From: an uncultured Alphaproteobacteria bacterium
GTDB lineage: Bacteria > Pseudomonadota > Alphaproteobacteria > HIMB59 > GCA-002718135
DNA: 64,000 bases
Reading direction: 5' to 3'
Assembly (NCBI GenBank): GCA_902567855.1
Contig: CACFOQ010000003.1
Coordinates: forward strand, 62,001-126,000
A program made the position numbers and the translations under genes. The notes beneath the pieces are model-generated. The model saw only the letters and a program-made list of their open reading frames with translations. It was not told where the DNA came from and did no database searches. Shown piece by piece: positions 35,809 to 40,556 of the stretch (position 1 is its first letter; each line of letters begins with the position of its first letter).

Positions 35809-36909
35809 TTAATTAATTTTAATTTGTAATTCATTAACAACTTCTTTTATGGCCTTAATGGTATCATGCATATCATTTTCATCTAAATTTCCAATACATC
35901 CAATACGAAAAGTATCAGCAACAGTAAGCTTGCCTGGATAAATCAAAAAATCTTTATTACTTAAAGCATCATAAAATTCTTCAAAATTAAAATTTGAATT
36001 TTGAGGCTGCATAAATGTTATAATTATTGGTGCTTGTAATTCATTTGATAGTAATTGTTTAAAACCTATTTCTTTCATACCATCACAAATTATTTTGCAA
36101 TTATTTGAATACCTTTTATGTCTTCCTTCAACCCCCCCTTCTTTTGAATGTTCATTTATAGCTTGTTGAAAGGCAGCTAAAACATGTGTGGGAGGAGTAA
36201 AACGCCACTGTTTATTTTTTTCCATCGCCTGCCACTGATCATATAGATCTAAACTTAAAGAATGTGCATTTCCTTTTGCTTTTTCGATAATATTATTTTT
36301 AACTAAAATAAAGCCTACTCCTGGAACTCCTTCTAAACATTTGTTGGAAGAAGCAGCAACAGCATCAAATACAATTGTTTTACTACTAAGAGGAAGAGCG
36401 CCAAAAGCACTCATAGCATCAATAAATAATGATAAATTTTTTTTTGCTACTAAGTCAGATATTTTTTGAATAGGATTTAATATTCCTGAGGTTGTTTCGC
36501 AGTAAACAGCAAACACATGAGTTAAATCAGTATTAGAATCTATAATGTTTTCAATTTCACCTAAATCATGTTGTTCATGTTCCGCAACTTCATAAGCAAT
36601 ACATTCTCTACCAACATAGTCACACATTTTTTTCATACGGTGACCATATGCTCCATTAATTAATATTAATATTTTTGCATCTTTAGATGTGAGAGAGCCA
36701 ACCATTGATTCTACTGCAAATGTTCCGCTACCTTGCATTGGAACACATTGGTAATTATTTTCACCATCAATAAGTTTTACAAGAGATTCACGAATAGAAT
36801 GGTTCAGATCAATAAATTTTTGATCTCGCGAACCCCAATCATGAAGCATGGCTTCTTTGGTTGTCATGGAGGTAGTAAGTGGTCCAGGTGTAAGAAGTTT
36901 TTTATCCAT
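35809..36909 (-). CDS. phnW: 2-aminoethylphosphonate--pyruvate transaminase
   Basis: 366 aa PLP enzyme; converts 2-aminoethylphosphonate and pyruvate to phosphonoacetaldehyde and alanine. It opens with LLTPGPLTTSMTTKEAMLHDWG, a family signature; the pyridoxal lysine is K190 in AASSNKCLEGVPGVGF, preceded by the cofactor Asp in LFIDAMSAFGAL. The protein has the usual length. It leads a three-gene cluster on the minus strand and is divergent from the PhnZ-like gene. Its product is the substrate of PhnY (32812), and PhnA (31571) completes the path. Confidence 0.95.
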   Translation of the reverse strand: MDKKLLTPGPLTTSMTTKEAMLHDWGSRDQKFIDLNHSIRESLVKLIDGENNYQCVPMQGSGTFAVESMVGSLTSKDAKILILINGAYGHRMKKMCDYVGRECIAYEVAEHEQHDLGEIENIIDSNTDLTHVFAVYCETTSGILNPIQKISDLVAKKNLSLFIDAMSAFGALPLSSKTIVFDAVAASSNKCLEGVPGVGFILVKNNIIEKAKGNAHSLSLDLYDQWQAMEKNKQWRFTPPTHVLAAFQQAINEHSKEGGVEGRHKRYSNNCKIICDGMKEIGFKQLLSNELQAPIIITFMQPQNSNFNFEEFYDALSNKDFLIYPGKLTVADTFRIGCIGNLDENDMHDTIKAIKEVVNELQIKIN

Positions 36910-37007
36910 ATTCTTAATTGAGTTAACTATTTAATTCTTAATTAGCTCACTAGCAATTAAATAAAAAATTGATTTGCAATTTTTTCTTAAAGTTGTATTT
37001 TTTCTGT

Positions 37008-37568
37008 GTGGAAAATATTGTTAATCATCTATTAAATCTTTTGGCAACCAAAGGAGCTGATCTACAGTATGGAAATGAAGATGTAACACAATTAGAACAT
37101 GCCTTACAATGTGCTGAATTAGCAGAAAATAATAATTTACCTAATCCTACTATAGCGGCCGCTTTGCTACATGATATAGGGCACTTATTATATGATGGTG
37201 ACGACCCCATTCATGAAGGCAAAGATGGTCATCACGAAAATATAGGAGCAAATTATCTAGCTGAATATTTTGGAGCAGAAGTTATTCGCCCAATACAAGC
37301 ACATGTTGATTCTAAGAGATATTTGTCTGCTGTAGAAGAAGGATATTATGACCTTCTATCTGAAGCATCAAAACTATCTTTAGAAGCTCAAGGTGGTCCT
37401 TTTACAAAGGAGGAAGCCAAAATTTTTGTTGAAAAACCTTTCATGAAAGAAGCTATAGAATTAAGACGTTTTGATGATCAAGCCAAAATCTTAAATAAAA
37501 AAACGCCTTCTCTTGATTATTTTAAACATTATGTTGAAGAGGCTCATAATTTATTTTTAAATAATTAA
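37008..37568 (+). CDS. PhnZ-like HD-domain (phosphonate-associated) oxygenase family protein
   Basis: 186 aa from the GTG at 37008 (MENIVNHLLNLLATKGADLQ), which fits family N-termini better than an upstream TTG. Residues match the diiron PhnZ set by count: Y21 and E24 (YGNE), H31, H55/D56 (LLHDIGHL), H59, H75 or H76, H99, K103, S124, Q128 and D156 or D157. PhnZ cleaves 2-amino-1-hydroxyethylphosphonate to glycine and phosphate; TmpB is a close relative. The hydroxylating partner PhnY*/TmpA (a 2-oxoglutarate dioxygenase) is absent from the window. Divergent from phnW and followed after 3 nt by a tyrosine phosphatase. Confidence 0.85.
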   Translation: MENIVNHLLNLLATKGADLQYGNEDVTQLEHALQCAELAENNNLPNPTIAAALLHDIGHLLYDGDDPIHEGKDGHHENIGANYLAEYFGAEVIRPIQAHVDSKRYLSAVEEGYYDLLSEASKLSLEAQGGPFTKEEAKIFVEKPFMKEAIELRRFDDQAKILNKKTPSLDYFKHYVEEAHNLFLNN

Positions 37569-38218: not shown

Positions 38219-39112
38219 ATGTTTTTAAAAAAAAAATATATATTTGACGGAGGAATGGGACAAACCTTAATTGAAAGAGGAATGATTACTTCTGGAACAT
38301 TATGGTCTGCAACAGCACTTGTTGATGAAAATCTAAATCATCTTGTTGTAAATGCTCATCTAGAATTTATAAACTCTGGAGCAGAAATTATAGTAACTAA
38401 TAATTTTAAAGTTAGAAAAAATACATTTACAGAAAATGGAATAATTGAGAAATTTAATTTTGCCAATAAAAGAGCTGGTGAACTAGCAATTATAGCTCGT
38501 AATAAATCTAATAAAAATATCTTAATTGCTGGATCAATTCCTACACGGGGTATTACCTATCAACCTCATGTTAACTATGATGAAAATGAAGTTTTTGATG
38601 AATTTTTTCAAACTGCTAAAGAGCTTAACCCATTTGTAGATTTTTTTTATTTAGACGCAATTTGTTCCATAAGAGAGATGATAACAGCGTTGAATGCAAT
38701 TAAAGATTTTAACAAACCTATACTGATTGGATTACATTTTAGAAAAAACCTATTACTTCCTTCGGGTGAATCAATAAAAGAAATTTCTAGTGCAATAAAA
38801 AACTTCGATTGTGCTGGATTAATATCATCTTGTGTATCCCCAGAAATTTATAATGGTGTTTCGTCCAATTTGAAAAAACAAAATTTACCCTTTGGTTTTG
38901 CTATTAATGCTTTTATAGATATTCCAGATAAATTTGAATTAGATGAAAAATTTTCAGCACAACCAAATACGTATTTAGGTTTAAGAAAAGATATAACTCC
39001 AATAAAATTTTCTAACTTTGCAATCAATTCCTTTAACAATGGTGCTAAATTTTTAAAAGGTTGCTGCAATATAATGCCTGCTCATATTAGTGCTTTAAGT
39101 AAGTTAATATAA
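38219..39112 (+). CDS. Homocysteine S-methyltransferase family protein
   Basis: 297 aa (BHMT/MmuM-type barrel). N-terminal FDGGMGQTLIERG, the NNFKVRKNTF motif, and zinc-ligand cysteines in ISSCVSPEIY and FLKGCCNIMPAHIS are visible. It transfers a methyl group to homocysteine; the donor is unknown. A second, unrelated-looking member of this family is at 39381 on the other strand and is under a SAM riboswitch. No riboswitch is visible in the 128-nt leader here. Confidence 0.85.
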   Translation: MFLKKKYIFDGGMGQTLIERGMITSGTLWSATALVDENLNHLVVNAHLEFINSGAEIIVTNNFKVRKNTFTENGIIEKFNFANKRAGELAIIARNKSNKNILIAGSIPTRGITYQPHVNYDENEVFDEFFQTAKELNPFVDFFYLDAICSIREMITALNAIKDFNKPILIGLHFRKNLLLPSGESIKEISSAIKNFDCAGLISSCVSPEIYNGVSSNLKKQNLPFGFAINAFIDIPDKFELDEKFSAQPNTYLGLRKDITPIKFSNFAINSFNNGAKFLKGCCNIMPAHISALSKLI

Positions 39113-39185: not shown

Positions 39186-39220
39186 AAAAAAAGGGAAGTG
39201 ATAGGCCTTACCACTCCCCC
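39186..39220 (-). terminator. Intrinsic terminator downstream of bhmT-like gene
   Basis: On the minus strand, GGGAGTGGTAAGG/CCTATCACTTCCC forms a long stem (one bulge, about 11 pairs) followed by a run of seven T. It lies about 160 nt past the homocysteine methyltransferase stop codon at 39381 and may also end a small RNA. Confidence 0.8.
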
Positions 39221-39380: not shown

Positions 39381-40442
39381 TTAAGCTTTATCTCCATACC
39401 CACTTATATGCTCAGGTATTCTTTCATTTGTTCCATACATAAAGTGATTAGACATTTTCTCGCTATATCTGCTAGCGGGTACTTTTCTACCTATTGCCTC
39501 AGCTACTTCACGAATATGCATTGGAGCAGCACCGCAACATACACCTATATATTTTATATCTAGTGCATGAACTTTTTTTGCAAAATCTCTTATTTCATAT
39601 CTATTACAATATAAGGGATCAAGCGCGGTTGGGAATGTTCTGCCGTGAGGTGCTGGACATGTGCAGCCATTATTATCATCTAGATTAAAGAATGTGGGTT
39701 GAGCTTTAGTTGTTCTAAAAGGGATAGGTAGTGCTGCCATATGACATTTAACTACTTTACGAATTTTTTCTAAATAAGGAATCATTGTATTAGGTCCTCT
39801 AAAACAATTCATTCCTACAACATCTGCACCTCGCTGTTCTAATTCCTTACATGTATCAATAACTGATACTCCATCGCGCATAATATTTTCTCCCATAGGA
39901 GAAATTGTTAAAACAGCTGGAAGTCCTGATTTTTTAATTTCTTCAAGCGCTGTATAGGCTTCTTCAGCATAATAAAATGTTTCACCAACAACAAAATCAG
40001 CTCCTTCATCAACAGACCAACCTATCATTTCAGCAAACATCGACCTTACTTCATTTTGTTTATTTTTATCTTTTGGATCCCAAATATTGGTATTAGAAAT
40101 ATTGCCAGCAAGAAGATTCTTTTCTTTTCCTTCACCAGGATCATTAGCAACAGCTTTAGCAATTTTGAGAGCAGCTCTATTAAGGGGCTCTAGAAGTTCT
40201 TCTTTCCCAATAACACGCATTTTTTCACGGTGACCATTATATGTAAATGCTTCAACAATATCTGAACCAGCATGTTGAAAATCCTTATGAATATTCATCA
40301 GTGCTTCTGGATTTTCTAATGCTAATTCTGGAACAAACTCTCCCGAAGCAAGATAACCCCTTCTTTCTGCCTCAAAGAGAAATCCTTCTGCACATATTAC
40401 TGAATCATTTTTAAGTCTTTCTAATAATCCTCTTTTGTTCAT
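39381..40442 (-). CDS. bhmT: Homocysteine S-methyltransferase (betaine-type) BhmT-like
   Basis: 353 aa. Start chosen at ATG 40442 (MNKRGLLERLKNDSV) because GGAG lies seven bases upstream; in-frame starts at 40454 and 40469 are upstream. Signature parts: CAEGFLFEAERRGYLASGEF, VEAFTYNGHREKM, VGETFYYAEEAY, a middle Cys (GADVVGMNCFRGPN) and the C-terminal zinc CC in IGVCCGAAPMHIREVA. It should methylate homocysteine to methionine, probably from glycine betaine. A SAM-responsive riboswitch and terminator sit directly upstream, so expression should fall or rise with SAM. Confidence 0.9.
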   Translation of the reverse strand: MNKRGLLERLKNDSVICAEGFLFEAERRGYLASGEFVPELALENPEALMNIHKDFQHAGSDIVEAFTYNGHREKMRVIGKEELLEPLNRAALKIAKAVANDPGEGKEKNLLAGNISNTNIWDPKDKNKQNEVRSMFAEMIGWSVDEGADFVVGETFYYAEEAYTALEEIKKSGLPAVLTISPMGENIMRDGVSVIDTCKELEQRGADVVGMNCFRGPNTMIPYLEKIRKVVKCHMAALPIPFRTTKAQPTFFNLDDNNGCTCPAPHGRTFPTALDPLYCNRYEIRDFAKKVHALDIKYIGVCCGAAPMHIREVAEAIGRKVPASRYSEKMSNHFMYGTNERIPEHISGYGDKA

Positions 40443-40473
40443 TTTTTTCTCCATTAACTTCAACAACACTTAT

Positions 40474-40508
40474 AAAAAGAGATATAGATTTTTAAGGTAT
40501 ATCTCTTT
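40474..40508 (-). terminator. Leader terminator between riboswitch and bhmT
   Basis: On the minus strand AAAGAGATATA (40508-40498) pairs perfectly with TATATCTCTTT (40486-40476) around an 11-nt loop, followed by TT. Its 5' arm overlaps the conserved GCTAAAG end of the riboswitch core, so ligand binding and hairpin formation should compete. It lies 32 nt before the bhmT start codon. Confidence 0.7.
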
Positions 40509-40556
40509 AGCTGTATTTATAAATCGCCCGCAATCTGACTATCAAATTAGCGATAT
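40502..40556 (-). promoter_or_regulatory. SAM-II/SAM-V class riboswitch upstream of bhmT
   Basis: Minus-strand RNA holds stem ATCGC (40554-40550) with GCGAT (40527-40523), an internal TAATTTGATAGTCAGATTGC segment and the 3' core AAATACAGCTAAAG. Stem placement, ATTTGA, TTGC and the AGCTAAA end agree with the shared pseudoknot core of SAM-II and SAM-V riboswitches, which are known before bhmT and metY in SAR11. By eye I cannot separate the two classes. It precedes a terminator hairpin. Confidence 0.7.

Follow-up and report, generated by a model that had tools for sequence, protein, structure and literature searches.

We identified, in the leader of the bhmT gene carried by the analyzed stretch of DNA (64,000 nucleotides; hereafter the window), a probable SAM-II riboswitch, which is not a curated member of this family. 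We regard it as somewhat likely that the element is an OFF switch of the ordinary kind, repressed by SAM, with the decision falling while the RNA is being transcribed. A hairpin overlapping the aptamer is likely to be the unbound shape of the RNA and not a terminator, so that no switch working backwards is needed.

The bhmT gene (39381..40442, minus strand) encodes a homocysteine S-methyltransferase (Pfam S-methyl_trans, 5.7e-37), which shares 70-75% identity with many BhmT proteins of SAR11 and SAR86, and up to 96% with those of near relatives. Its similarity to SAR11 BhmT suggests that it is of the betaine type. The ATG (40442) is preceded by a ribosome-binding site, GGAGA (40448..40452, minus strand). 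An intrinsic terminator of the gene's own (39192..39220, minus strand; score +46.7) served as the yardstick for terminators of this genome. The SAM-II element is located directly upstream of bhmT, where the earlier note had placed it.

The Rfam SAM_alpha (SAM-II, RF00521) covariance model matched the minus strand from end to end (window 40563-40486; model 1-79) with a score of 29.8 bits. The E value was 7e-5 in a local scan (501 bases, all families) and 4.6e-5 across the whole 1.35 Mb genome, where the next-best match had an E value of 0.067. The score is below the curated gathering score of 36 bits, and a default Rfam scan of the window gave no entry for SAM-II or SAM-V at the bhmT leader. 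The P1 stem, UUGC and the GCUAAA core occur in the SAM-II order, as judged from the sequence and the alignment. P1 is formed by AUCGCU (40549..40554) and GGCGAU (40523..40528; all parts of the aptamer are on the minus strand), both present in the MFE fold. The 5′ strand of P2b, GUC, which we take by analogy with the SAM-II structure 2QWY to be located at 40537..40539, would pair with GAU (40503-40501) through C-G, U-A and G.U. P2b of the window comprises these 3 bp only, one of them G.U, and its strands co-vary across bhmT leaders (e.g. AUC/GAU, GUC/GAU, GUU/GAC). The SAM-binding core and the 3′ strand of P2, GCUAAAGAGAU (40501..40511), are the same in five related elements, and the conserved GCUAAAG (40511-40505) is intact. 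In L1, the usual G (GAUUUG) is replaced by A in the window element and in the copy of genome G089.

The earlier note had described the element as SAM-II/SAM-V-like. Of these two Rfam families, the former matched, albeit below the 36-bit cut-off, and the latter (RF01826) gave no match at the bhmT leader. The aptamer core lies 69 nt upstream of the ATG, whereas in SAM-V the ribosome site is contained in P2, near the start codon. The tandem of the SAR11 type (SAM-II, terminator and SAM-V in series) is absent from the window bhmT leader, which contains SAM-II alone. In the window's own genome, metY is immediately preceded by a SAM-V-like element (L001 1501-1564; G000:C4:23833-23896), with a sub-threshold score of 27.7 bits (E 0.013). 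Like SAR11, this genome seems to use both SAM-II and SAM-V, although the two do not form a tandem at bhmT. Genome G007, of the window's own family, does contain a SAR11-type tandem at bhmT, acquired by transfer or placed there by mis-binning.

A search for the core pattern in 162 genomes of the order (HIMB59-like) revealed four further elements: in the bhmT leaders of G089 and G005 (the BhmT of the latter with 84% protein identity), and in one rhodanese leader of each of these genomes, where a sulphur-transport gene is next downstream. The weak points of the window element, i.e. its sub-threshold score, short P2b and the A for G in L1, might indicate a degenerate or inactive SAM-II remnant, whose leader owes its conservation to other causes or to recent recombination. 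On the side of this reading, the stretch identical to G089 extends 42 nt into the gene. In favor of a working switch, the leaders of the window and G089 are identical over 112 nt, although the two bhmT genes have 57 differences in 1062 positions (41 at third positions). Moreover, the core is identical in five elements, before two kinds of sulphur gene and in three genomes, and the conserved GCUAAAG is unimpaired, which makes a remnant quite improbable.

SAM-II elements precede rhodanese genes at L146, L150 and L022; a YeeE-type sulphur-transport gene follows in L146 and L150, which suggests that sulphur uptake is under SAM control. At L014, L023 and L013, in other genomes of the order, the genes preceded by SAM-II are, as named by eye from similarity, an OsmC-like gene, metX and one for a homocysteine methyltransferase.

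The aptamer overlaps an 11-bp hairpin (-8.8 kcal/mol), composed of the 5′ arm AAAGAGAUAUA (40498..40508, minus strand) and the 3′ arm UAUAUCUCUUU (40476..40486, minus strand), an anti-aptamer strand followed by UUAUAAG. The GCUAAAG 3′ end of the aptamer shares a strand with this stem, as the earlier note had observed. Because the hairpin uses both the core and the P2b strand, it and the aptamer are mutually exclusive, and on this point too the note was correct. The fold of the 83-nt element has a z value of -2.8. Shuffling of the downstream sequence gave P = 0.003 when pairing of the P2b strand was scored, P = 0.017 when energy was scored, and P = 0.054-0.069 for a broader statistic (the whole core plus tail paired). 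The hairpin of L149 was not significant. For eight leaders of the order combined, core sequestration gave P = 0.0035 with a stretch of 40 nt and 0.017 with one of 50 nt. It is probable, though not certain, that the hairpin is under selection, its significance varying with the statistic.

The hairpin begins in the 3′ strand of the aptamer, directly after the core, in all related elements, which differ in their 3′ arms and loops. It is kept in four leaders (loops of ~3-11 nt), with diverged forms AAAGA..UAGG/CCUA..UCUUU, GAUGA/UCAUC and GAUGAA/UUCAUC. About 20 SAR86 bhmT leaders also carry a SAM-II-like element; in most of them, GGA(A) of the P2b strand pairs with UUCC to form a small hairpin. 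Tests of single leaders against shuffles gave P values of 0.003-0.48, most of them not significant. The SAM-II-like elements of SAR86 and gammaproteobacterial bhmT leaders (L039-L062, L085) have a conserved tail, CGGAAnnnnUUCCCAGGAUUUAA, whose AGGAUU is also able to pair with GAUCCU of the aptamer.

According to the earlier note, the hairpin is a terminator whose formation is prevented by SAM, which would thus turn bhmT on. In favor of this reading, the stem has five U's after its G-C core, and aptamer and hairpin cannot form together. We scored candidate terminators with a simplified version of our own of the d'Aubenton Carafa formula, in which positive values are terminator-like. The window hairpin, with two G-C pairs and an 11-nt loop, scored -8.7, compared with +46.7 for the terminator of bhmT and +22.7 to +42.9 for the SAM-II terminators in 31 SAR11 bhmT leaders. 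It ranked 7th of 185 sites in 16 kb, within the range of intragenic sites, and a standard terminator scan did not list it. Moreover, none of the three diverged relatives has a U-tract after the hairpin. The assignment as an intrinsic terminator is poorly supported, even if some termination may occur there, given the five U's. The reversed logic rests on this assignment and is not favored. It is also contrary to feedback and to the increase in bhmT transcripts of Ca. Pelagibacter ubique under sulphur limitation (PMC5069961), and we judge it highly doubtful.

The bhmT leaders of the SAR11 type offer a different model for core sequestration. In 43 such leaders (L055-L115), the core CUAAAGCG is complementary to CGCUUUAG, which consists of the last bases of the terminator 5′ arm and the terminator loop; complementarity is perfect in 23. 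Among 13 distinct combinations, 86.5% of cells are paired, against 77.3% after shuffling. In nine cells both partners have changed (C-G to A-U and others at pair 7; G-C to A-U or U-A at pair 6). Covariation was 0.207, compared with 0.057 in shuffles (0/500), and was lower when the partner was slid. Since core-loop pairing would prevent formation of the terminator, the sequences indicate an antiterminator at low SAM and a terminator at high SAM, i.e. normal feedback. As SAR11 shows, the ON state can be one in which the core is sequestered. In full-length P. ubique RNA, the SAM-II domain is unresponsive to SAM because of the linker (PMC11508383); a linker that sequesters the core would account for this. 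The sequence of the P. ubique linker, taken from the published primers, was not found among the loci compared.

By analogy, the window hairpin would take the place of the SAR11 antiterminator pairing by sequestering the core. At low SAM, the nascent RNA would fold the hairpin (40508-40498/40486-40476), with the core out of use, and bhmT would be expressed. At high SAM, the ligand would presumably bind before the 3′ arm emerges, and the pseudoknot would keep GCUAAAGAGAU. This would leave unpaired both the 3′ arm and the AU-rich leader as far as the ribosome-binding site. The free (apo) fold has an energy of -23.1 kcal/mol, compared with -12.2 kcal/mol when the aptamer is held, with the gain from P2 and SAM uncounted. 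At a cost of ~11 kcal/mol, a finished transcript is unlikely to switch, so the decision must be kinetic, falling presumably after the core has been made and before the 3′ arm is complete. Kinetic switching fits the published insensitivity of the SAR11 SAM-II with its linker present (PMC11508383), and bhmT induction in sulphur-limited P. ubique (PMC5069961) supports repression by SAM, the probable direction of control, as the expected sign.

For the SAM-bound state, we found no structure that could serve as the output. A separate terminator forming in that state was sought between aptamer and gene: none is present in the window, L149 or L150, and L146 has one poor site (-39). Translational control, in which SAM frees the 3′ arm to pair with the ribosome-binding site or the first codons, is conceivable from the possible pairings UCUCU/GGAGA in the window and UAUCU/AGAUA in L149, and from low P values in some SAR86 leaders. 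However, the fold model predicts GGAGA to be open in both states, with an opening cost raised by only 0.15 kcal/mol (0.3-0.8 in relatives), not above shuffles. In the four leaders tested, pairing of the released arm with the start region was no better than that of shuffled arms (P 0.07-0.89), and we consider this mode unlikely. As the tests gave no support for sequestration of the ribosome site, we favor, tentatively and at less than even confidence, an output of the SAM-repressed switch in which the transcript is terminated prematurely (e.g. by Rho) or its exposed strand is cut by RNase. It is possible, although rather doubtful, that the elements of the HIMB59-like order and SAR86 constitute a marine SAM-II sub-type, with a platform that lacks both a terminator and ribosome-site sequestration and consists of the core-sequestering hairpin alone, the output being e.g. 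Rho loading or RNase exposure.

The window element resembles SAM-II (RF00521) in (i) P1, (ii) the GAUUU-like L1, (iii) UUGC, (iv) the GCUAAA core, (v) a putative pseudoknot P2 and (vi) its location upstream of a methionine gene. It differs in its score below gathering, its 3-bp P2b, and the lack of a strong terminator and of a ribosome-binding site in P2. It shares the aptamer class and the gene with the SAM-II/SAM-V tandem of Ca. P. ubique (PMC2704228, PMC5069961, PMC11508383), and in both the core is complementary to a strand just downstream, but the window lacks SAM-V. In SAR11, the arm and loop of a strong CCACC/GGUGG-U9 terminator pair with the core, whereas the window has a plain hairpin. 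As in the SAM-II leaders of S. meliloti metA and metZ, there is further structure between aptamer and start codon; in that species, however, a terminator is predicted to form upon SAM binding (metZ) or the Shine-Dalgarno sequence lies within the aptamer (metA) (PMC9373788), and both differ from the window. A ribosome-binding site inside the aptamer serving a nearby start codon was likewise considered and rejected, no ATG, GTG or TTG being at a usable distance in the window or L149. Compact translational SAM-II elements (Sargasso metX; L021, L025, L026, L029, L034) belong to the same aptamer class, but there the ribosome-site GGAG is itself the P2 strand, 15 nt before the ATG. The compact SAM-II-like elements of same-family genomes (L021, L025, L026, L029, L034, L018), with GGAG in P2, lie 14-15 nt before ORFs of 61-65 aa; the one such ORF tested had no Pfam match. 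The window element is thus a probable member of a known riboswitch class and precedes a gene of a known kind; its expression platform differs from those described.

Two further loci of the window were noted. A second homocysteine S-methyltransferase gene (38219-39112, plus strand) is oriented convergently to bhmT, and a search upstream of it (38219) for a second riboswitch found none. Its relative in G005 is located after bhmT and on the same strand. At 35809-37568, a gene for 2-aminoethylphosphonate transaminase (PhnW) adjoins one for a phosphonate HD-domain oxygenase.

With these results, control of bhmT by SAM-II would no longer be confined to SAR11 but would include other ocean bacteria, in which betaine demethylation feeds methionine synthesis. 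They also offer a testable account of why the SAR11 SAM-II ignores SAM when its linker is present, namely that the linker pairs with the SAM-binding core.
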